Positions 31,668-46,429 of a stretch of DNA of 64,000 bases are shown piece after piece. How positions within the stretch are numbered: the stretch's first letter is position 1; every line of letters starts with the position of its first letter. Origin of the DNA: Phytopseudomonas straminea. GTDB lineage: Bacteria; Pseudomonadota; Gammaproteobacteria; Pseudomonadales; Pseudomonadaceae. The notes under the pieces were generated by a model. The model was not told the origin of the DNA. It was given only the letters and a program-made list of their open reading frames with translations, and did no database searches. A program made the translations under genes and the position numbers. The stretch lies in NCBI RefSeq assembly GCF_900112645.1, contig NZ_FOMO01000009.1, positions 1 through 64,000 on the forward strand. Direction: 5' to 3'.

Positions 31668-32627
31668 ATGTTGGAGAACGATTCTTTGATACGGCCAGGG
31701 ATGAAAGTAGCACTTGTGCCATGCCCGGCCTTGGGCGATACCACGCTGTTTTTGTGGCTGGCTTGGCGCTTACAGGCTGCTGGAGCAGAAGTGTCACTGT
31801 GCTCTAAAGGATTGTTGTCTTTAAGTCATTATTTACCTGGCTTGACGATCCTTGATGGTCATTATGATCTACCGAGTCTGGCGCGTTCCAATGACTTGGT
31901 GATATGCGCGCTGAAACGTTTTGATGAGTTGAGCGATTCTGAACCCAGCAATGTCGCTTATTTGGCAAGCAAAAAATTTTCTTCAGACCATCCGCTGGCG
32001 CGGCGTGAAGTGTTGATACGAGGCAATATCCTGCCAGGCGGCAACAATGTGATTTGTCGAGACTCTCGGGCTGGTAAAACCATGACCCAGTGGATCGATT
32101 TGTATGCTAGCGAGATTCTTGGCTTGGACGTAGCTGCTGCTCCGGCTGGCTTCCAGTTGCTGCCAGCGGTCAGTGAGGATGCGAAACGGCGCATCGCCAT
32201 TTTCCCTACCAGCCCAGATATCAACAAGAATTATTCAGCGCTTGGGTTCAAGCGTCTTGCCGATAAGTTGGCCGCCAAGGGGTGGGTGGTCGAGTTTGTG
32301 GGCACCGTCCCGGAACAGGTGGCACTACAGTCGCTTTACCCGAATTATATCGTTCACGCATTTAGTGATCTGAAGGGGCTAGTTGATTATCTGCGTAGCT
32401 GTTCGGTAGTGATCAGTAACGACTCAGGAGGCGGTCACATCGCATCTCTTCTGGGGCTTCATACGTTCACGATAACGCGCAGGCGTGAAGACTTTACCTG
32501 GCGGCCCGGATTCAACTCCCTTAACCGAGTCATCAATCCCAGCATTACTTTCAAATGGTTGGGACGGCCAATCTGGCGCCCGTTCATTTCTCACCGTCGT
32601 CTCATCCGGGAGCTCCCTAAGTGGTAG
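31668..32627 (+). CDS. Third GT9 heptosyltransferase-like protein in the core locus
   Basis: The 319-residue product has the GT9 N-terminal loop VALVPCPALGDTTLFLWLAW with its conserved GD, and the C-terminal nucleotide site VISNDSGGGHIASLLGLHTF. Those place it with WaaC/WaaF/WaaQ, but it is clearly distinct from both neighbours. ATG follows the waaP TAA directly. Base composition is A+T-richer than waaF-waaG, and TTA, ATA and AGA-type codons appear, suggesting separate origin. I recall no equivalent at this position in P. aeruginosa. It may add a third heptose (WaaQ-like) or another ADP-activated sugar. Confidence 0.8.
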   Translation: MLENDSLIRPGMKVALVPCPALGDTTLFLWLAWRLQAAGAEVSLCSKGLLSLSHYLPGLTILDGHYDLPSLARSNDLVICALKRFDELSDSEPSNVAYLASKKFSSDHPLARREVLIRGNILPGGNNVICRDSRAGKTMTQWIDLYASEILGLDVAAAPAGFQLLPAVSEDAKRRIAIFPTSPDINKNYSALGFKRLADKLAAKGWVVEFVGTVPEQVALQSLYPNYIVHAFSDLKGLVDYLRSCSVVISNDSGGGHIASLLGLHTFTITRRREDFTWRPGFNSLNRVINPSITFKWLGRPIWRPFISHRRLIRELPKW

Positions 32628-37321: not shown

Positions 37322-38432
37322 ACAGGCAGACGGCCAAACGCAGCGCTGGGTTCTGCAGTTCTGCCATGGCTATGACGGCCCCTTTCTGGACTGCGCGCGG
37401 CAATACGCGGTGCTGTTCAAAGACACGCCCTACAAGGTTTGCACTGTCTATCTGACCGGCAAGCCATCGGCGGAGGTCGAGCGCGGCTCGGTTTCCGACG
37501 AGGTGATCTTCCTCGACTATTCCAGCGCCCAGGTGCGCGCGCTGAAATTGGGGGCTGTCCGGGATTTTCGTCGGATTGCTGCCTCACGCGATTTCGCCCT
37601 GTGCATCGCGCACCGCTTCAAACCGATCTATGTGGCTCTGCTGGGCAGCAACCTGCCGGTGATTGGCGTACATCACGCTTTTGGCGACTATAAGCGCCGC
37701 TCGAGGCAACTGTTCGCCAATTTCTTCAGCAAGCGCCTGATGTTGATCGGCGTTTCCAACGCCGTACGTGACGACATGCGCGCCTGCCTTCCTGATTGGC
37801 CAACCGGGCGCATCGAAACTCTCTATAACCGTATCGATATCGATGCCGTGCGGGCAGAGCAGTTACCTCGTGAGGCTGCGCGTGAGCATCTGGGATTACC
37901 TCAGGATGCTTGGGTGGTCGGTAATGTAGGCCGTCTGCACCCCGACAAGGACCAGGCCACGCTGATTCGTGGTTTTGCCGAAGCTCTACCCCAGTTGCCG
38001 GTGTCTAGCCTATTGGCCATTATGGGCTGTGGCCGTCTGGAGTCCTCACTCAAGGCCCTCGCTATGGAGTTAGGGGTGAGTGAGTCAGTGCGTTTTCTTG
38101 GGCAGATACCGAATGGGCGTCGCTACTTCAAGGCCTTCGATGTATTCGCACTGACCTCTGATCATGAGCCCTTCGGCATGGTGTTGCTGGAGGCGATGGC
38201 TGGAGGTGTTCCGGTGGTCTGCAGCGATTGTGGCGGAGCGCCAGAGGTTGTGGGCGGCGTTGGACAGGTTTTCACGCTGGGCGATGTGCAAGGGTTAGCC
38301 AGCGAGTTGCTCCGAGTGCCTACTGTGCAGGCCTCAAGTGAAGCGATGCTGGTCCGCCTGCAACGATTATTTTCGGATCAGGCTGCTGCTGAGCGTTTTC
38401 GGACGCTGTTGATACCGTCAAGCTGGGCATAA
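37308..38432 (+). CDS. wapH: GT4 glycosyltransferase of the core (WapH-like)
   Basis: The 374-residue protein has the GT-B architecture with a C-terminal GT4 donor site: VGNVGRLHPDKDQATLIRGF, RFLGQIPNGRRYFKAFDVFA, and SDHEPFGMVLLEAMAGGVPV with the paired glutamates of the EX7E motif. ATG at 37308 overlaps the carbamoyltransferase end by 14 bases. Position directly after the carbamoyltransferase matches wapH (PA5004). From about 37,850 onward the gene is noticeably A+T-richer. Acceptor and donor are not readable from sequence. Confidence 0.82.
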   Translation: MTASEQADGQTQRWVLQFCHGYDGPFLDCARQYAVLFKDTPYKVCTVYLTGKPSAEVERGSVSDEVIFLDYSSAQVRALKLGAVRDFRRIAASRDFALCIAHRFKPIYVALLGSNLPVIGVHHAFGDYKRRSRQLFANFFSKRLMLIGVSNAVRDDMRACLPDWPTGRIETLYNRIDIDAVRAEQLPREAAREHLGLPQDAWVVGNVGRLHPDKDQATLIRGFAEALPQLPVSSLLAIMGCGRLESSLKALAMELGVSESVRFLGQIPNGRRYFKAFDVFALTSDHEPFGMVLLEAMAGGVPVVCSDCGGAPEVVGGVGQVFTLGDVQGLASELLRVPTVQASSEAMLVRLQRLFSDQAAAERFRTLLIPSSWA

Positions 38433-38437
38433 CGCAT

Positions 38438-39697
38438 ATGAGCAATCCCTGGCTGGACAAGTGCCGAATGCTGGACCGATATCGCTGGCTGCTCTTGCGT
38501 GAGCGTCATGGTCTATTGGGTAGCGTCTTGCGCTTTGTGCGCGATGCGAGCCGGGACTGGATTTTAGGTGTTCGTGCCATGACGCGTTTGGTGGCGAATC
38601 CGCAAACGCAGAGCTGCGATTTCCTGTTGCTGCAGTCGATGACGAAAGTCATTCCCCTGCAACGTAAACGCTTGTTAAAGGATGCGCTGGTAGCCCGCGG
38701 CTATAGCTTGGTGGAAACTGCGTTGCCTGAGCCTGGTGAGATGCTCCGTCAACGTATGCTCTGCAAGCCGCCATTCCCGATTCCCGTTCGCTATTTCGGT
38801 TACGCAGCCCATGCACAGTGGCTAGTCGAGCGTTACCATCCGCGCGTCTTGCTCAATGATCGTAATGGCAGCTTATATGCGCCATTTCTGCGGCTTGCCC
38901 TGAACGCCCGGCAAAACCTATTGGTGCATCTGGCTCACGCCACTACAGTCGAAAGTTCACGTCGGCTGGGAATGAACGATTACGACTATTACTTTCTGTT
39001 CGGACGTAGTTCATTGGAGGCGCTGCAGAAGCGAACGTTGCGCTTTGGCAATTCAACGGCCGTCCTTGCCGGCTCCCATATGATTGACAACACCTATGAC
39101 TTGGCGCCGGCAGATCCGGAGTTGCGCACAATTCTTATCTTGGGCGTTGGTCCGGATAAGGAGAAGGAGGCGGGGTATAAGGCTGCGTATGAGTTGCTGC
39201 GAGACTGGGCGCGGGAGCACTCCGAGTACAAAGTTCTGTTCAGGGCTCATCCGCGTAGTCAAGCGGCATTCTGGCGGCAGGTTGCTAGCGAGATACCACA
39301 GCTTACGGTTCTGTCACGCGATTGCCATCTGGCAGACGCGTTGCAACGCGCTTCGATGGTAATCAACATAATGTCCAATGCTGTTATTGAGGCCGCTCTG
39401 GCTCGGCGCCCGGTAATAAGCATAAGTGTCAGTGGCGAGCGGGACATCTTCGCTCTCCAGCGTTTCTTCGGGCCCGGTGTTGCATCGGTGGACGCTTTGC
39501 AGGCGCAGGTATCTGCTGCAGAGCGCGGCTATAGAGCAGCCGTCGAGCAAAGCTCAGATTTCGCTGAATACCACTTGGCGAATGGTTGCGCAGGTTTGTC
39601 CAGCACCCTCGACGCGCTGGCTACGTTGCTTGAGCGTCGAACCCCTCCTGGCGATCTGCAGGTGATCCACTCGACAGTCGAGTTAGCTCAATGTTGA
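38438..39697 (+). CDS. Putative GT-B-type surface polysaccharide glycosyltransferase, family not recognised
   Basis: The 419-residue protein is soluble, with a basic N-terminus, a central LVHLAHATTVESSRRL and YYFLFGRSSLEALQK, and a C-terminal half with ILILGVGPDKEKEAGYKAAY, VLFRAHPRS and MVINIMSNAVIEAALARRPV. The AHPRS and NAVIEAALARRPVI segments look like the donor half of GT-B enzymes such as CDP-glycerol transferase-like or capsule proteins. It starts five bases after the wapH-like stop. Codon use is A+T-richer than the inner-core genes. The role in core or O-antigen assembly is inferred from position. Confidence 0.55.
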   Translation: MSNPWLDKCRMLDRYRWLLLRERHGLLGSVLRFVRDASRDWILGVRAMTRLVANPQTQSCDFLLLQSMTKVIPLQRKRLLKDALVARGYSLVETALPEPGEMLRQRMLCKPPFPIPVRYFGYAAHAQWLVERYHPRVLLNDRNGSLYAPFLRLALNARQNLLVHLAHATTVESSRRLGMNDYDYYFLFGRSSLEALQKRTLRFGNSTAVLAGSHMIDNTYDLAPADPELRTILILGVGPDKEKEAGYKAAYELLRDWAREHSEYKVLFRAHPRSQAAFWRQVASEIPQLTVLSRDCHLADALQRASMVINIMSNAVIEAALARRPVISISVSGERDIFALQRFFGPGVASVDALQAQVSAAERGYRAAVEQSSDFAEYHLANGCAGLSSTLDALATLLERRTPPGDLQVIHSTVELAQC

Positions 39698-39721
39698 TAG
39701 CAATGTTGTCTGTCAGACCCC

Positions 39722-39739
39722 ATCAATACATGTATTGAT
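39722..39739. promoter_or_regulatory. Perfect 18-bp palindrome in the only large gap of the LPS locus
   Basis: ATCAATACATGTATTGAT at 39722-39739 is its own reverse complement over all 18 bases. It lies 25 bases after the stop of the upstream glycosyltransferase gene and about 110 bases before the capsule-type gene at 39849. No U-tract follows, so it is not a terminator; a dimeric regulator site is the simplest reading. Confidence 0.5.
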
Positions 39740-39768
39740 TCTTGTATGAAGAGGTTGGTGTACTCCTC

Positions 39769-39852
39769 ATGAATCGGATCGCTATTTTAAGCGAGTTTCC
39801 CGTCAAACAATCTTGCGTTAGGTTTGACGCTCTTCACCGGATTAACGAATGA
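39769..39852 (+). CDS. 27-codon leader-type ORF coupled to the capsule-type gene
   Basis: ATG at 39769 opens a 27-residue frame (MNRIAILSEFPV...LHRINE) whose TGA (39850-39852) overlaps the ATG of the next gene (39849-39851) as ATGA. That next gene has no ribosome binding site of its own, so translation of this short frame could carry ribosomes into it. MNRIAILSEFP also resembles the first strand of a GT-B glycosyltransferase, so a degraded gene start is an alternative. There is no strong Shine-Dalgarno site before 39769; GAGG lies 13-16 bases upstream. Confidence 0.35.
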   Translation: MNRIAILSEFPVKQSCVRFDALHRINE

Positions 39853-40958
39853 CTCAGTTTCTATTTCTGGCGCTGGCCAAACATCAGCTTATTTACTTCA
39901 AACGGCTGCTTGATGAAACGGAATTGCAGGGCAAGGTTTTTCAGCCCAGCCAGTTACCCTTACCGCGGCCATGGCGGTTGTCAGCCATCGCAGGTCGGCT
40001 CGACTGGGCAGGGCTCATCGAGGAGAAGTGCCAAGAGAGGCGAGTAAAGCGTAAATATGAAGGGTTTTTCTACCGTTTGCTGCTAAGGCTGGAATTGGCC
40101 TGGATGGCGCTGCGAGTAGAAGCGCTATTGCATCGCGAGAAGCCAGAAAATGTTGCTATGTGGAATGGTTCGCATCGTTACTGCCAGCTGCTGCTAGCTC
40201 TACGTCCTGAAGGCTGCGGCACTTTCTTCTTTGAGAATGGATTGCTTCCGGACACGACGACACTTGATTCAAAAGGTGTAAATTATCGCAATTCGGTTCC
40301 TCGCAACGCCGAGTTCTATCGACGCTACATTGCGCCAGAAGGCGCGGTTGAGGCCCGTCTACAGCTAATCCCACGTCCGTCACGCAATAAAGGTCTTGAG
40401 CCCATCCGCTTGCCACATCGCTATGTATTTATGCCTTTCCAAGATGACCGTGATACTCAGGTGCGACTGTTTTCACCTTGGGTGGGCGATATGCGTCAGC
40501 TGTTTGCTCTTGGTAAGCGTTTGGCTGACGAGTGTGGCCTTACCGTAGTTTTCAAGGAGCATCCCTCTAGCAGGGAGACCTATCCCGACCTTCATGCACA
40601 GGTGCATGAAAGGCTACTTTTCGCTAATGGCAATCCAACTCAAGAGTTGATCCAGAACTGTGAGTTTGTCGTGACGCTCAATTCCACAGTCGGACTTGAA
40701 AGTTTGCTGCTGGGGAAACCAGTGATGACCCTCGGGCAGGCTTTTTTCAATATCCCCGGGATTGTTGCGCATGCTGACTCGGCCAGCGAGCTGCTTGAGT
40801 TGGCTGCGAACTTTCCGCGGTGGGGGCTGGATGATCAGCTGCGGCAGAGCTTTTTGCGTTACTTGGCTGCGGAATACTGTATCCAAGGTGGGTGGCGGGA
40901 AGCCGATGGGGCCCAGTTACAGCGTGTGGCGAATCGAATGCTGGATAACAGAGTCTGA
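39849..40958 (+). CDS. Capsule-synthesis family protein (KpsS/KpsC-like, possible beta-Kdo transferase)
   Basis: The 369-residue protein carries the capsule synthesis signature FFENGLLPDTTTLDSKGVNY followed by RNSVPRNAEFYR at about residues 127-158. Further on are YVFMPFQDDRDTQV, VFKEHPSSRETYPDL and EFVVTLNSTVGLESLLLGKP, all seen in the Capsule_synth family that includes KpsS and KpsC. Those enzymes are retaining beta-Kdo transferases acting on lipid acceptors. Its place between core glycosyltransferases and waaL suggests a role in core or O-chain priming rather than capsule; no kps export genes are nearby. The start is coupled to a short upstream frame. Confidence 0.7.
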   Translation: MTQFLFLALAKHQLIYFKRLLDETELQGKVFQPSQLPLPRPWRLSAIAGRLDWAGLIEEKCQERRVKRKYEGFFYRLLLRLELAWMALRVEALLHREKPENVAMWNGSHRYCQLLLALRPEGCGTFFFENGLLPDTTTLDSKGVNYRNSVPRNAEFYRRYIAPEGAVEARLQLIPRPSRNKGLEPIRLPHRYVFMPFQDDRDTQVRLFSPWVGDMRQLFALGKRLADECGLTVVFKEHPSSRETYPDLHAQVHERLLFANGNPTQELIQNCEFVVTLNSTVGLESLLLGKPVMTLGQAFFNIPGIVAHADSASELLELAANFPRWGLDDQLRQSFLRYLAAEYCIQGGWREADGAQLQRVANRMLDNRV

Positions 40959-40959
40959 T

Positions 40960-42159
40960 ATGAGAGCGATTTATCCACGACTTGATCTTCTGGCAACTTG
41001 GGCGCTATTAGGTTTTCTTACGCTGCTTTGTGCTCCTTGGGTGATGCCTAGTAACAAGCTTTATCACCAGTTCTTGATTGTTCTCCTCTGGTTGCCAGGG
41101 TTGTTCGCGCTAAAACATGTCGAGTTTCGTAAGCATTTGCTGAAGCCTGAGTTTGTGCTCTTTGTTTTGCTGGGGGTGTGGACGCTAATCGTAACGCTCA
41201 TCCATAGCGGAGCGGACGTGCTCAGTAGTCTCAAGTTACCGTTCTATGTGCTGCTATCTTTGCTTGGCGTGGTGCTTGCGGCACAGCAAAGGAAATATTC
41301 CATCGAGAGCCAGCTGTGCGCCGCTGCGCTTGTAGCCGGGCCTTTTGCACTATTGTCTGTTGTTAAGGTTTATTACTTAGCAGGTAACGACCTTGGACAT
41401 CGAGTTATAGCCCTTGGGCTGTGGGACACAGTCATCATGGCCGCTCATGCGGTAGGTGCGCTTCTGGTTCTAGGTGTTTTGCTGAGCGTTAGATATCGAT
41501 CTGGTTGGTCGAAGTTCCTAATCCTTTTAGCTATTGGCGCGATGGGCCTCTTCGTTCTACTGAGTCAAACGCGCGGTGTTTGGATCGCTCTGGTCGCCGC
41601 ATTTATAGTAATTGTGTTAGCAAGACCTACGCGGCTGGGCGTGTTTACTCTATGTTTAGGAGGGTTAGGAATTGCCATAGTGGCTCTGTTCTTTCCCGAG
41701 TTCCTGGCTCAGCGCGGCCTGTCGTATCGCCCCGAACTGTTCCAAAAGGGGCTGGCGATTTTTACAGAGAGCTGGATGCTGGGAGTCGGTTTTGGTGAGT
41801 ACGGAATCACAGTGGATGCGCTAGGACGAACCTTTAAACATCCCCACAATCTTTATCTGGATACGGGGATTCGCTGGGGGGCGGTTGGGCTTGCTCTATT
41901 TTTCATGTTGTGGGCGAGTGTAGGGTGGCGGGCGTGGCATAACCGTCGAGTCGACTTAGGGCTTGCCTTGCTTGGGCTATGGACGTTTTCGAGCGTGTCA
42001 TTGCTCACCGATGGTATCGGCTTATGGTTTAAGCCGAATGCAGACTGGATGGTTACTTGGTTACCTGTAGCGATAGGTTTGGTGCTTGCGGTAAAAGAGG
42101 ATGCGTCCGAGGCTATTGCCACAGAGAGCGTGAAGGCAGGATTAGATCATGTTCGCTGA
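40960..42159 (+). CDS. waaL: O-antigen ligase WaaL
   Basis: WaaL transfers undecaprenyl-linked O-antigen to the core on the periplasmic side of the inner membrane. The 399-residue protein has about ten hydrophobic segments and a large periplasmic loop containing SQTRGVWIALVAAF (conserved Arg) and FKHPHNLYLDTGIRWGAVGL (conserved His of the H-N-x-Y/F-L motif). ATG at 40960 lies one base after the preceding TGA; the longer frame from 40762 is within the neighbouring gene. It is A+T-rich. The sequence is only loosely conserved outside these motifs, as usual for WaaL. Confidence 0.85.
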   Translation: MRAIYPRLDLLATWALLGFLTLLCAPWVMPSNKLYHQFLIVLLWLPGLFALKHVEFRKHLLKPEFVLFVLLGVWTLIVTLIHSGADVLSSLKLPFYVLLSLLGVVLAAQQRKYSIESQLCAAALVAGPFALLSVVKVYYLAGNDLGHRVIALGLWDTVIMAAHAVGALLVLGVLLSVRYRSGWSKFLILLAIGAMGLFVLLSQTRGVWIALVAAFIVIVLARPTRLGVFTLCLGGLGIAIVALFFPEFLAQRGLSYRPELFQKGLAIFTESWMLGVGFGEYGITVDALGRTFKHPHNLYLDTGIRWGAVGLALFFMLWASVGWRAWHNRRVDLGLALLGLWTFSSVSLLTDGIGLWFKPNADWMVTWLPVAIGLVLAVKEDASEAIATESVKAGLDHVR

Positions 42160-42198
42160 TTTGATGATTTTTGCTTTTCAGTTGATGCTGAGCTGCCT

Positions 42199-43143
42199 AT
42201 GACGGTTTACTTTCTCGGCTGGAAGGCCCAATACGAAAAGCTTTTTATTGATCACCTTGCAGAGAGCTATGATGTCGTTTATCTCGAGCAGTCCAAGTTT
42301 TGGAACCGTCTCAACAGGTTGGTTGGCCGTTTTCTGGGGGGGCGATGGCAGTCACGACTCGCGTTGTTTTATGTATGGCGGTCGGGATTTTCTGCGAATG
42401 ATCTGTTGATATGCAACGAGGGAGAGATACATCGAAAGTTCAACGCGCCTATAGTCGGAGCGTTTCCCGGTGTGAAGCTATTACTGATAAGGGATTTGGT
42501 TGACTCTGATTTTATTATAAGGTGGGCCGGTCTTTTTGATGCGGTGTACAGCTTTGATCGTAAGCAGTGTGAAGTCCTTGGCATAAAGTACCTTCATCAA
42601 TTCTTTCCTATGGGGTTTGCCCATGCCAAAGCTGTTGCGTCCTCATATGAATGGACCACTACAAAAGCATTGTTCATAGGGAGGGATAAGGGAAGAGGCC
42701 AAGCGTTAATACGTTTGGCTGAGACGTTGGTGGAGTGCGGCTGTGAGGTGGATTTTAGAATTCTGGTTGATAAGCAGTTTTCTGGTAAGACAAAGTACCA
42801 TGTTACGGAGTTGGTCGATTACCGGGATTACGTTTTGGCTAGCGCTGGTGCCGACGTCATTGTTGAGGTTAATCAGTCAGGGCAGGCAGGCGTTACCCTG
42901 CGTGCGCTGGAGGCAGCCTACTTTGGAAAGAAACTGATAACGACTAATAGCTCGGTGCGTGAGCTGTCTTTTTATAATCCATGTAATTTTTATATCCTTG
43001 ATGACTGTCATTTACCTGATGTGGAAGAGCTCAAGCGCTTTCTCGCGTCGACGGTTGAGCCTGTTGCATCATCGTTGATCTATGAGTATTCACCTGAGCA
43101 CATGCTAGAGACACTGATGCGCAATCATGGGTACAGTGGTTGA
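42199..43143 (+). CDS. Putative core glycosyltransferase of unrecognised family
   Basis: The 314-residue protein is soluble and has a GT-B-like layout. The N-terminal half has FLGWKAQYEKLFIDHLAESY, KLLLIRDLVDSDF and DAVYSFDRKQCEVLGIKYL (a pattern seen in CgeB-like and some LPS glycosyltransferases). The C-terminal half has FIGRDKGRGQALIRLAE, VIVEVNQSGQAGVTLRALEA and KLITTNSSVRELSFY. The gene is strongly A+T-rich relative to the chromosome. It sits between waaL and waaZ. The catalytic site and sugar are unknown. Confidence 0.5.
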   Translation: MTVYFLGWKAQYEKLFIDHLAESYDVVYLEQSKFWNRLNRLVGRFLGGRWQSRLALFYVWRSGFSANDLLICNEGEIHRKFNAPIVGAFPGVKLLLIRDLVDSDFIIRWAGLFDAVYSFDRKQCEVLGIKYLHQFFPMGFAHAKAVASSYEWTTTKALFIGRDKGRGQALIRLAETLVECGCEVDFRILVDKQFSGKTKYHVTELVDYRDYVLASAGADVIVEVNQSGQAGVTLRALEAAYFGKKLITTNSSVRELSFYNPCNFYILDDCHLPDVEELKRFLASTVEPVASSLIYEYSPEHMLETLMRNHGYSG

Positions 43144-43188
43144 TTGCTTTTGTCTTGGCGGGTTGACGGTTCTTGATAAGGAGGTTGT

Positions 43189-43986
43189 TTGAATTCTTTA
43201 GATATCGCGAATGTGCAAAATTCCCAAAGAGGGGATGTTTTTATTATTGCAAGCGGGCCCTCTGCTCGCGAGTTTCCGTTGATGCAGTATTCGCATATTC
43301 CTATGCTGGCTTTGAATGGATCTGTCCGTTTGTTTGATGAGGCGGGTATCTCGCCTTTCTTTTATATGTGTGATGATGGCAGCTTCGTACGTAATCGATT
43401 GCCGTTGCTGTTACGGGCTGTCGAGATTTCTCAGAACTTAGCACTGAGCCCTGGGGTCATCGATAACCTGTTGAGGCTGCAAGAGCGTGCGCTTGATGAC
43501 GTGGGCATCTACCGATTTGAGCGTGTGAATCGCCCCGGGGAAAATAAGCCCGCTTTGAGTGATAGATGCTTTGCTTGGCGCGCGCGTCAAGATTCGGACA
43601 TGGAATGTCATTTCTCCCTGCTACGGCAGAAACCCAATCGCATTGGTTTCTGCCGTAATCTTGCCAAGGGATACTTCAGTGGTCGAACAATTCCTTATGC
43701 AGGCATCCAGCTGGCGTACCACTTGGGGTTCAGTCGGGTGTTCTTGGTAGGCGTCGATCTTGATTCGAGTCTTGGTCGTTTTTATGAGCAGGGTGCCGAC
43801 GCGGTGCCCAGCCGTTTGGATGGTGACTATTTTGACTACATCCTGCCGTGTTTCCAGCTGATGGCAAGACGTGTAGTGGGAGAGCACTTCGCTGTCTACA
43901 ATCTGTCGCCCAATAGCCGACTGCCTGCCGATTTGATTCCTAAAATAGGTATCGATCAGTTGGACGGCTTATTGGTTAATTCGTAA
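43189..43986 (+). CDS. waaZ: WaaZ homologue, LPS core Kdo-adding protein
   Basis: The 265-residue protein resembles E. coli WaaZ, as recalled. FIIASGPSAREFPL and MLALNGSVRLFDE correspond to the N-terminal half of WaaZ. IGFCRNLAKGYFSGRTIPYA with GIQLAYHLGFSRVFLVGVDL, then SLGRFYEQGADAVPSRL and YNLSPNSRLPADLIP, follow the C-terminal half of WaaZ in order and spacing. WaaZ is needed to add a third Kdo to the inner core of some E. coli and Salmonella cores. The TTG start at 43189 is chosen because AAGGAGG ends four bases upstream. Its 3' end overlaps the convergent kinase gene by 31 bases. A+T-rich. Confidence 0.75.
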   Translation: MNSLDIANVQNSQRGDVFIIASGPSAREFPLMQYSHIPMLALNGSVRLFDEAGISPFFYMCDDGSFVRNRLPLLLRAVEISQNLALSPGVIDNLLRLQERALDDVGIYRFERVNRPGENKPALSDRCFAWRARQDSDMECHFSLLRQKPNRIGFCRNLAKGYFSGRTIPYAGIQLAYHLGFSRVFLVGVDLDSSLGRFYEQGADAVPSRLDGDYFDYILPCFQLMARRVVGEHFAVYNLSPNSRLPADLIPKIGIDQLDGLLVNS

Positions 43987-44567
43987 TCGCGTATGAGTTC
44001 TTCCCAGGGAAAACCCTCTACGTTTCGCCTTTTCAAATAGCCTTGCAGGTGAGCAAAATTACGTCGTACCAGGCTCTGACTTAGTGGACTTCGCTTAATG
44101 CGCAGGTCTAGAAAGTCGATGAGCCCAAAGCCTCCTGCAGGCAGCAGTAATACATTGCCCAAATGCAGTGACCGAAAATATATGCCGTTCTGATGCAGGT
44201 GGTATATGTAGGCAGAGAAATCCGCTAGAAGCGCGTCGAAGAGTGGTCGTTGTTGCTTGAACAAGCTCTCCAGTGGAGTGCCGTTCAGAGGATAATACAA
44301 GCAGGCGCTAACCCCTTTGTCTGGTTCAAGCCAAACGCTTTCAATCTTTTCGGGAGTGGCGATGCCCAAGCTTCCCAGCGCTTGGGCGTTGTGGGCAAAT
44401 CGCTTTGCTTCGGGGCGCCAGCGTGCTAGCCACGGTCTTTTGCTACGAAAGATCTTAAGAAACCGCCCATCTTGAAGGCAAACGACTTTCGGGCCGCGGG
44501 AGTCCTTCTCCACGATCTGCCCTGTGTTAAGCCAGTGCTGTAGCTCGTTCGCTGTTACAATCCGCAT
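43956..44567 (-). CDS. Kinase-fold protein of the WaaP/InaA family with altered catalytic motif (PA4998-like)
   Basis: The 203-residue protein starts MRIVTANELQHWLNTGQIVE; the longer ATG at 44594 adds nine residues. It has DGRFLKIFRSKRPWLARWRP (nucleotide-site Lys) and YFRSLHLGNVLLLPAGGFGL with IDFLDLR. At the HxD position the catalytic Asp is replaced by Ser (FRSLHLGN), while the later metal Asp is kept. It is the only minus-strand gene in the LPS locus and overlaps the waaZ 3' end by 31 bases; msbA starts 32 bases away, divergently. A role in core modification or a regulatory pseudokinase role is possible. Confidence 0.7.
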   Translation of the reverse strand: MRIVTANELQHWLNTGQIVEKDSRGPKVVCLQDGRFLKIFRSKRPWLARWRPEAKRFAHNAQALGSLGIATPEKIESVWLEPDKGVSACLYYPLNGTPLESLFKQQRPLFDALLADFSAYIYHLHQNGIYFRSLHLGNVLLLPAGGFGLIDFLDLRIKRSPLSQSLVRRNFAHLQGYLKRRNVEGFPWEELIRDYELTNKPSN

Positions 44568-44599
44568 CGTTTTCTCTAGCCAGTTGTGGGACATGCCGA

Positions 44600-46429
44600 A
44601 TGGCCAATTCTACCCAGCAATCCAGCCTGAAGGTGTATCTGCGTCTGCTGCGTTACGTGGTCCCCTACTGGGGGCTTTTTGCCATCAGCCTCTTTGGCTT
44701 CCTTATCTTTGCCTCCACCCAGCCAATGCTAGGCTACATCCTCAAGTATTTTGTCGATGGCCTGTCGAACCCTGACGCCAGTTTATTCGCAGGTGTTCCC
44801 TGGCTTTTGGAGCATGCGCCGTGGCTGGCCCACCTCAAGCTGCTGCAGGCCGTACCGCTGCTGATCATACTGATCGCCTTGTGGCAGGGGCTTGGCTCCT
44901 TCCTTGGCAATTACTACATAGCTAAGGTTTCCATGGGGTTGGTGCAGGATCTGCGTATTGCACTTTTCAACAACCTGTTGATGTTGCCCAACCGCTATTT
45001 CGACAACCACAACTCTGGCCACCTGATTTCGCGCATCACGTACAACGTAACGATGGTTACCGGCGCTGCCACCGACTCGATCAAGGTGGTGGTACGTGAA
45101 GGCATGACGGTAATTTTTCTGTTTATCACCCTGCTGTGGATGAACTGGAAGTTGACCTTGGTGATGTTGGCCATTCTGCCAATCATCGGCCTTATGGTGA
45201 GTAGCACCAGCAAGAAATTCCGCAAGCAAAGCCGGAAGATTCAGACCAGTATGGGGGACGTCACCCATGTCACGTCCGAGAGCATCCATGGTTATCGTGT
45301 GGTGCGTAGCTTCGGCGGCGAGGATTACGAGAAGGAGCGTTTTTTCAAGGCCAGCGAGGAGAACAAGAACAAGCAGCTGAAAATGGTGCGCACCGGTGCT
45401 GTGTATACACCTTCGTTGCAACTGGTGATTTACAGTGCCATGGCCGTGTTGATGTTTCTTGTCCTCTGGTTACGCGGTGATTCGTCGGCTGGGGATCTGG
45501 TGGCCTATATCACCCTAGCTGGTTTGCTGCCCAAACCGATTCGCCAGTTGTCCGAGGTCAGTTCGACCATCCAGAAAGGGTTGGCCGGCGCCGAGACCAT
45601 ATTCGAGCAACTTGATGAAGAGCCTGAAGTAGATAACGGTACTCAGGAGCGCGAACGCGTCAGCGGTCGTCTTGAAGTGCGAGATCTGAGCTTTACTTAT
45701 CCCGGTTCTGAAAAGCCGGTACTGAACCATATTTCCTTTGTCGCCGAGCCTGGGCAGATGGTCGCTCTGGTCGGCCGCTCGGGAAGCGGGAAGTCAACTC
45801 TTGCCAATCTTATTCCGCGCTTCTACCACCATGAGACAGGACAGATCCTGCTCGATGGCCTGGATGTAGAGGACTACACACTGCGCAACCTGCGCCGTCA
45901 TATCGCGCTGGTAACCCAGCACGTCACTCTGTTCAACGATACGGTGCGCAACAACATTGCCTATGGCGATCTTGCCGGGGCGCCACTGGAGGCCGTGCAA
46001 CAAGCGGCAAGCGATGCGTATGCCGCGGAGTTCATCGAGAAGATGCCTCAGGGCTACGATACCCTGGTCGGTGAGAACGGCGTGTTGCTCTCCGGTGGTC
46101 AGCGCCAGCGCCTGGCGATTGCCCGCGCGCTGCTCAAGGATGCGCCGGTGCTGATTCTCGATGAGGCCACGTCAGCGCTGGATACCGAATCCGAGCGGCA
46201 TATTCAGGCTGCGCTGGATCAGGTCATGCAAGGGCGTACGACACTGGTGATCGCCCATCGTCTGAGCACCATCGAGAAGGCCGATCTGATCCTGGTGATG
46301 GATCAGGGGCAGATCGTGGAGCGTGGCTCCCACGCTGAGCTGCTCGCGCAAAACGGCTATTACTCTCGACTGCATGCCAAGCAGTTCGAGGACGATGACG
46401 ACTCCGCTGCTTCCAAGCAGGACGCCTGA
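44600..46429 (+). CDS. msbA: Lipid A/LPS flippase MsbA (ABC exporter)
   Basis: MsbA flips core-lipid A across the inner membrane. The 609-residue half-transporter has six transmembrane segments in residues about 20-325, then an ABC domain with Walker [15 protein letters not shown], signature [15 protein letters not shown], Walker [17 protein letters not shown] and switch His in [12 protein letters not shown]. Length is typical. The following gene starts within its stop codon (TGATG), so msbA, mig-14 and dnpA form one unit. Confidence 0.95.

Follow-up and report, generated by a model that had tools for sequence, protein, structure and literature searches.

In Escherichia coli, WaaZ is the transferase of a third residue of 3-deoxy-D-manno-oct-2-ulosonic acid (Kdo) in the lipopolysaccharide (LPS) core, and WaaS is a rhamnosyl transferase placing rhamnose on Kdo-II or Kdo-III, as in glycoforms IV/V (PMC6358824). 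The P. syringae core, including that of pv. phaseolicola, contains Kdo-III as alpha-Kdo-(2->6)-beta-Glc-II (Glc, glucose), and the composition Kdo3Hep2Hex2HexN4P5 is listed for strain DC3000 (PMC8005017). Retaining Kdo transferases carry a QXXXD nucleophile motif (PMC10148158, PMC12887879) and a (K/R)XHP motif at the cytidine monophosphate (CMP) site (PMC12887879). Here we describe a locus in which relatives of both enzyme types are found together with the O-antigen ligase gene waaL. It lies in a 64,000-nucleotide stretch (the window; NZ_FOMO01000009.1, positions 1 to 64,000) of the 4.99-Mb genome of Phytopseudomonas straminea, whose relatives are Pseudomonas. Four genes follow one another on the plus strand: a KpsS/FixF-like candidate for a retaining Kdo transferase (39849..40958, 369 aa), waaL (40960..42159, 399 aa), a WaaS-like glycosyltransferase gene (42199..43143, 314 aa) and a WaaZ-like candidate for a Kdo transferase (43189..43986, 265 aa, TTG start). 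An initial annotation had described the first and the last as Kdo-transferase-like proteins flanking waaL. Both reading frames are present and the KpsS-like gene does adjoin waaL, but the WaaZ-like gene is separated from it by the WaaS-like gene, which had been missed. We propose that the four genes fall into two pairs independent of each other, one made up of the KpsS-like gene and waaL, the other of the WaaS-like and WaaZ-like genes, within an exchangeable outer-core cassette, and we assign this explanation as a whole a probability of about 0.5.

The KpsS-like gene is linked to one type of WaaL. The window WaaL matches PF04932 Wzy_C with 51.6 bits (cut-off 31.7) and is encoded in the LPS core locus, which identifies it as the ligase; its gene starts 1 nt after the KpsS-like stop. 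Among the 249 genomes of the genus sample, 12 contain a strong KpsS-like match (at least 65% to the window protein; the weak matches of G003, 27%, and G083, 30%, were set aside). Some WaaL match occurs in 194 of the 249, and relatives of the window type (at least 49% identity) in 11. The relatives stand at 49-60%, with the next WaaL at 36%, and all 11 genomes, the window's own among them, fall within the 12 that have the KpsS-like gene (Fisher p 2.6e-18, a value that, like the other Fisher values below, ignores relatedness, and for which the KpsS-like and WaaL thresholds, as later that for WaaS, were set after the gaps in the match lists had been seen). The two genes are adjacent in all 12 genomes, and the pair is intact in G010, G108, G114, G159 and G209 although the PA4998-type kinase gene lies upstream there, not downstream. 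The waaL match of G165 contains one TAG, which may mark a pseudogene, a sequence error or the gene end.

Twenty-six core loci, each picked because it holds a KpsS-like or a WaaZ-like gene, were placed on an msbA tree; the KpsS-like gene is present in 15 of them and absent from 11. The WaaL type agrees with the presence or absence of the KpsS-like gene in 26 of 26 loci, and this presence changes at least six times on the best tree. Left out were L078, whose contig starts inside WaaZ; L034, L035 and L039, duplicates of the L077, L079 and L086 genomes; L075 and L191, the latter from the exceptional genome G123 considered below, both on contigs that lack msbA; and L082, whose msbA is partial. The closest msbA relatives of the window, L084 and L086 (91-92%), have no KpsS-like gene and a WaaL of 27-28%, and L032 (90%) has the gene together with a 60% WaaL. 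At an msbA identity of 75%, four loci combine the KpsS-like gene with a 48-53% WaaL, and L080 has no such gene and a 32% WaaL. This pattern across msbA relatives argues against simple vertical inheritance. Neighbourhoods were read with blastp at E 1e-6 and core loci compared at 1e-8, so that weak WaaL matches (L038, 24%) drop out of the latter. Comparison with WaaZ on the same tree is uninformative, since possession of a WaaZ-like gene was the reason for including its KpsS-negative loci. The linkage suggests that this WaaL type depends on the KpsS-like enzyme for the making or shaping of its acceptor, and joint transfer of the two neighbours is possible. The idea of a Kdo primer linked to WaaL, put forward as one option in the initial annotation, thus gains support from the association of the KpsS-like gene with one WaaL type.

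The KpsS-like protein carries, as had been noticed before, the capsule synthesis signature (PF05159 Capsule_synth, 85.1 bits, gathering cut-off 20). Its sole QXXXD motif (Q198-D202; 40440..40454) contains the predicted nucleophile D202, and a KXHP motif predicted to bind CMP follows at K236-P239 (40554..40565). Both motifs are invariant in 17 of 17 aligned sequences, homologues at 60-80% to the window protein, none of which is interrupted by a stop, and the combination of QXXXD with (K/R)XHP is the one that marks retaining beta-Kdo transferases of the GT99/GT107 kind. The nearest sequences in the PDB are KpsC and WbbB, and a profile match puts the window QXXXD onto that of KpsC (6mgd). An AlphaFold model built from seven sequences, with a mean predicted local distance difference test score (pLDDT) of 78.6, is of GT-B type. 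Foldseek placed KpsC 6mgd first (E 1.7e-8) and the epimerase 1f6d next (5.9e-8), and VIA-align gave Z 14.0 for WbbB (root-mean-square deviation (r.m.s.d.) 4.6, 269 aligned residues), 13.3 for KpsC (4.1, 259) and again 14.0 for the UDP-GlcNAc 2-epimerase 4neq (6.9, 252). Since WbbB and the epimerase score alike, we did not accept the predicted structure as showing that this protein acts on Kdo. We consider it fairly probable that the KpsS-like protein transfers Kdo with retention.

The statement of the initial annotation that capsule export genes are missing holds beyond the window for the two families scanned. The gene at 39849 is the sole PF05159 match of its genome (E 0.001), and TIGR01010, the KpsE-family capsule adaptor, has no match there; among 14 genomes it has one, in G003, under the cut-off. 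Scans with PF05159 and TIGR01010 gave the KpsS-like gene no group 2 capsule context (KpsC, export genes), and a capsule locus remnant was rejected on account of the single PF05159 gene and the missing TIGR01010 match in this genome. In plasmid records, FixF of Sinorhizobium NGR234 ranks first, with 38% identity across 268 aa and both motifs present. In the class-wide search, a relative at E 1e-25 was present in nine of 320 other genomes, and the neighbourhoods of five of these nine were inspected. In L214 and L215 the relative lies beside WaaQ-like GT9 genes, in L216 with msbA-like, waaC and Wzy_C ligase genes, in L217 beside an msbA-like transporter, and in L213 only a GT2 gene was seen. KpsS/FixF-like proteins thus occur in L213-L217 and in L200 in other Gammaproteobacteria, in four of the five neighbourhoods near LPS-type genes. 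They are perhaps an LPS-core branch of PF05159 that has no name in the libraries used.

The second pair resembles a known one. The WaaZ-like protein matches TIGR04437 over residues 10-254 of 265 with 116.3 bits (E 1.4e-33), and with a curated cut-off of 200 it is filed as WaaZ-like, not WaaZ. Nearly its full length (residues 1-260) is related to WaaZ of E. coli K-12, with 27% identity in 282 columns (E 3.8e-30), in agreement with what the initial annotation had said of it, and it is 25% identical to the Klebsiella protein encoded between waaC and waaL (E 4.5e-21). A likely ribosome binding site, AAGGAGG, precedes its gene at 43178..43184. In the predicted structure (pLDDT 93.2) the best PDB match is the Maf glycosyltransferase 5mu5 (Z 15.3, r.m.s.d. 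3.2, 199 aligned), followed by archaeal HPPK (12.8; 3.2; 169), SteA (10.8; 3.8; 156) and the sialyltransferase CstII (10.5; 4.8; 193); this fold is compatible with a CMP-sugar transferase. Searching the PDB sequences with the WaaZ profile was unproductive (5mu5 at E 1.9). No stop was seen in 25 aligned WaaZ-like sequences. The protein probably adds a third alpha-Kdo.

The WaaS-like protein exceeds the curated cut-off of NF053598 (WaaS/CpsH family; 145.8 bits, cut-off 60) and is 32% identical to K-12 WaaS (E 2.7e-52). Close WaaS relatives, taken as matches with E under 1e-60, occur in six of the 249 genomes, and all six have a WaaZ-like match, which is present in 55 of the 249 overall (Fisher p 9e-5, or 4e-4 without the window's own genome); none of the 10 genomes with weak WaaS matches has one. 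The WaaS-like and WaaZ-like genes stand side by side in the window, L070, L089, L097, L130 and L141, with varying orders and places, and lie on different contigs in G089, G232 and G240. The K-12 WaaZ/WaaS combination is one that recurs in Pseudomonas as a loose two-gene set. An RmlC-family gene of the rhamnose pathway is present in all six WaaS genomes, including that of the window, which is only permissive for rhamnosyl transfer.

The two Kdo-type genes do not behave as one system. A single system of both was rejected, as they co-occur in five of the 12 genomes with the KpsS-like gene (Fisher p 0.14); the other seven have no WaaZ-like match. Both genes are present in L074 of P. indica NBRC 103045. 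The view of the initial annotation that both are Kdo-transferase-like is supported. In family profiles both fall with Kdo-transferase families; structure prediction is compatible with a CMP-sugar transferase for the WaaZ-like protein, with Maf as the best match and CstII as well as enzymes of other activity among the next, and leaves the KpsS-like one at a tie of WbbB with the epimerase. That both belong to the enzyme class of Kdo transferases is likely, and extra Kdo in the core appears to be the best reading of the locus.

According to our proposal, the KpsS-like enzyme would transfer Kdo from CMP-Kdo to the growing core with retention, forming a covalent adduct at D202 on the way, and the neighbouring WaaL type would ligate O antigen to this beta-Kdo or to a site needing it. 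The WaaZ-like enzyme, with its Maf/CstII-type fold, would add one alpha-Kdo as the third core Kdo, its acceptor being either Kdo-II as in E. coli or the outer-core glucose as in P. syringae, and the WaaS-like enzyme would attach another sugar, probably L-rhamnose, to that Kdo or close to it. We infer the donor, the anomeric form, the acceptors and the connection with ligation from the basis at hand, namely families, motifs, predicted folds, linkage, the RmlC-family gene and the lack of a NeuB-family match in the window's own genome. That Kdo is, or lies near, the O-antigen acceptor is a tentative suggestion. The more specific scheme is rather unlikely to be correct in all its parts: O antigen would be carried on a beta-Kdo from a capsule-type transferase, an exchangeable acceptor-ligase pair would replace wapR-waaL, a separate WaaZ/WaaS pair would add alpha-Kdo and rhamnose, and the core would contain both Kdo anomers.

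Several observations weigh against parts of this explanation. The KpsS-like protein reaches 49 bits with the KpsS equivalog NF050054, which has a curated cut-off of 600, and the tie of WbbB with an epimerase means that its fold alone does not discriminate. PF05159 relatives also use other sugars, as illustrated by GT118 KpsS1, a KpsS relative that moves pseudaminic acid (Pse) (PMC12887879). The enzyme could then be a retaining transferase of another sugar, a Pse-type nonulosonate or a neutral sugar, that involves no Kdo and may still make the WaaL acceptor, and a NeuB-family gene is indeed present in eight of the 12 genomes with the KpsS-like gene. We consider this unlikely. NeuB-family matches are missing from the window's own genome and from G010, G120 and G123, which hence have no known route to CMP-Pse, CMP-Leg (legionaminic acid) or CMP-Sia (sialic acid); by inference from absence, this leaves CMP-Kdo as the only nameable CMP-octulosonate/nonulosonate donor in these four; the nearest PDB sequences are KpsC and WbbB, and KXHP has been described for sialyltransferases and retaining Kdo transferases (PMC12887879). 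The linkage itself is open to a simpler interpretation, in which the KpsS-like gene and waaL are mere neighbours that moved jointly and the enzyme caps or decorates the core instead of defining the ligation site. Neighbouring genes do travel jointly, the low GC content of the stretch (0.47-0.53 vs 0.64) is expected for transferred DNA, and in G123 the gene beside the KpsS-like gene is a 28% WaaL of another type. Independent pairs number only five; all five are concordant, but the sign test gives p 0.0625, the minimum possible with five. Yet the WaaZ-like gene, also near waaL, is not associated with the KpsS-like gene in the genus sample, and the KpsS-like gene and waaL stay paired when the PA4998-type gene switches side, and this interpretation is on balance somewhat unlikely.

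The assignment of the WaaZ-like protein meets with similar difficulties. It misses the TIGR04437 cut-off, lies just below that of PF01973 MptE-like (31.4 bits, cut-off 34.6), matches archaeal HPPK in structure with the values listed above, and has in its fold list HPPK, SteA and thiamin pyrophosphokinases, none of them a CMP-sugar transferase. WaaZ-like genes are moreover found outside the core locus in 32 of 40 neighbourhoods (from 54 other genomes with WaaZ matches) and in 64 of 80 loci of a second set (from 125 confirmed loci), most without WaaS alongside, and within it in eight of the 40 and 16 of the 80 (15 by script plus L075). The flanks of lone WaaZ-like genes (nine proteins in eight loci) included no LPS family, and comprised an L,D-transpeptidase, an acyl-CoA ligase type, Omp85, GGDEF/EAL, a chemotaxis receptor, a permease and two family-less proteins. 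A Maf/MptE-type protein of other activity, acting on a nucleotide or another sugar substrate, is nevertheless quite improbable: the TIGR04437 match spans nearly the whole protein, K-12 WaaZ is a full-length relative, the best fold match is a glycosyltransferase with the CMP-sialic-acid enzyme CstII among the next, and the 17 WaaZ-like rows from LPS core loci, including the window, fall together on one side of the tree (SH-aLRT 90; the tree is a quick one, its root is unsure and the branches leading to E. coli and Klebsiella are very long). It is also improbable that the four genes are ordinary strain-variable outer-core genes without unusual Kdo, whose products are silent or minor. The patchy occurrence of WaaZ-like genes (55 of 249) would fit this view, as would the Kdo3 form being only marginal in P. 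syringae DC3000 (PMC8005017), but the conserved motifs and the lack of stops in the 17 KpsS-like and 25 WaaZ-like aligned sequences speak against it. We retain two independent pairs in an exchangeable cassette as the preferred explanation. Three further WaaZ-like genes are recorded here. That of L030 (G101) contains one in-frame TGA, from a pseudogene or a sequence error; that of L218 (G421), outside the Pseudomonas family, is 31% identical and belongs to an LPS core locus that also holds relatives of waaP, wapH and the carbamoyltransferase gene; and that of L140, from a record titled Pantoea sp. Ap-967, falls inside the P. putida tree branch, the record being probably a misnamed Pseudomonas.

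The window covers the core-oligosaccharide locus from waaF (27683) to hldE (ATG about 48781). Around the four genes the order is carbamoyltransferase, a wapH-like GT4 gene, the gene at 38438, the KpsS-like gene, waaL, the WaaS-like and WaaZ-like genes, the PA4998-type kinase gene on the minus strand and msbA. The GC content of the four genes is 0.53, 0.51, 0.47 and 0.50, against 0.64 in waaF-waaP and hldE; along the sequence it falls stepwise from about 37.5 kb, is 0.47 at 42-43.5 kb and is at least 0.61 again from 46 kb. The low-GC stretch at 39.8-44.0 kb resembles an exchanged outer-core cassette. GC skew reaches 0.23 within 37500-46000, and a promoter scan found one site, compared with 4.8 in shuffles. 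The glycosyltransferase-like neighbour upstream (38438..39697, plus strand, 419 aa) has sub-threshold family matches only, among them a weak one to PF05159 (13.1 bits, cut-off 20), and contains two RXHP matches and no QXXXD. Its gene adjoins wapH in many core loci, KpsS-positive ones and some KpsS-negative, and the product is possibly a third CMP-sugar enzyme. Its identification as Ssg (PA5001) was rejected, as the PA5001 equivalent is an RfaB-family glycosyltransferase (PMC8005017 Table 1) and the 38438 protein has no family over the cut-off. Between waaP and wapP, 31668-32627 encodes a GT9-type protein (PF01075, 36 bits) that is weakly heptosyltransferase-like and may provide an extra core sugar; GC is 0.51 around it, at 31.5-32.5 kb. 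Few fetched loci reach this place, with a 41% relative in L184 and none in L185, L189 and L191.

What WaaL recognises in the core is a long-standing question, and a transferase-ligase pair that is naturally co-exchanged makes this recognition directly testable. In P. aeruginosa, WapR makes the O-antigen attachment residue. Its gene (PA5000) is by number the neighbour of waaL (PA4999), and a footnote to Table 1 of PMC8005017 puts both outside the cluster. In the locus described here a capsule-type Kdo transferase would serve to assemble the LPS core, alongside a ligase that matches it, and the locus makes testable whether a surface polysaccharide hangs on the unusual acidic sugar Kdo. It also provides gene candidates for the core Kdo-III of Pseudomonas, for which the parts of PMC8005017 at hand report the chemistry in P. 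syringae and assign no gene. Extra core Kdo as such, which the initial annotation had thought new for Pseudomonas, is not new, the third core Kdo of P. syringae pv. phaseolicola and the Kdo3 form of DC3000 being already known; among the open-licence papers listed by searches on WaaZ, on a third Kdo and on KpsS with waaL in Pseudomonas, no title concerned the arrangement described here. PSPTO_2767, listed outside the cluster as 'Lipopolysaccharide core biosynthesis domain protein' in an entry without function (PMC8005017), may be a lone WaaZ relative.

Compared with known systems, the locus shares single features with each. With P. syringae it has in common a third Kdo in a Pseudomonas core, which there is known from its chemistry. 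In Acinetobacter baumannii different proteins, LpsB and 2903, add Kdo-III (PMC10936431), and the available parts of PMC11421494 leave the core structure undefined. The KpsS-like protein resembles KpsS/KpsC and WbbB in its PF05159 match, QXXXD, (K/R)XHP, the GT-B type model and the sequence matches to KpsC and WbbB; it differs in having no capsule partner, in scoring far below the KpsS cut-off and in being encoded in an LPS core operon with waaL. FixF of S. fredii NGR234, with both motifs kept, comes from a region with rhamnose and rhamnan genes, and fixF has been linked to rhamnose-rich LPS (PMC4972438, PMC3732241); it differs in its location on an alphaproteobacterial symbiotic plasmid, and no waaL is annotated in the fetched stretch. 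In Klebsiella, the gene of the WaaZ relative (TIGR04437, 67.2 bits) lies directly before waaL, and the locus differs in that the stretches inspected carry no annotation of a KpsS-like gene. The waa cluster of Klebsiella is chromosomal, and we note that L199 and L198 are Klebsiella "plasmid" records in PLSDB that contain one (hldD/rfaD, waaF, waaC, waaL). The gene between waaC and waaL is presumably that of a Kdo enzyme, the wabI product. Its identity with wabI is consistent with the locus-tag order in PMC13412088, where wabI loss alters the outer core. The residue to which Klebsiella ligates its O polysaccharide is a terminal Kdo (PMC10629545). In E. coli K-12, finally, WaaZ and WaaS are both related nearly full-length to the window proteins (27% and 32%) and both encoded in the LPS core locus, but waaS is separated from waaZ by four genes and waaZ from waaL by waaU, whereas in the window the pair is adjacent and stands just behind waaL.

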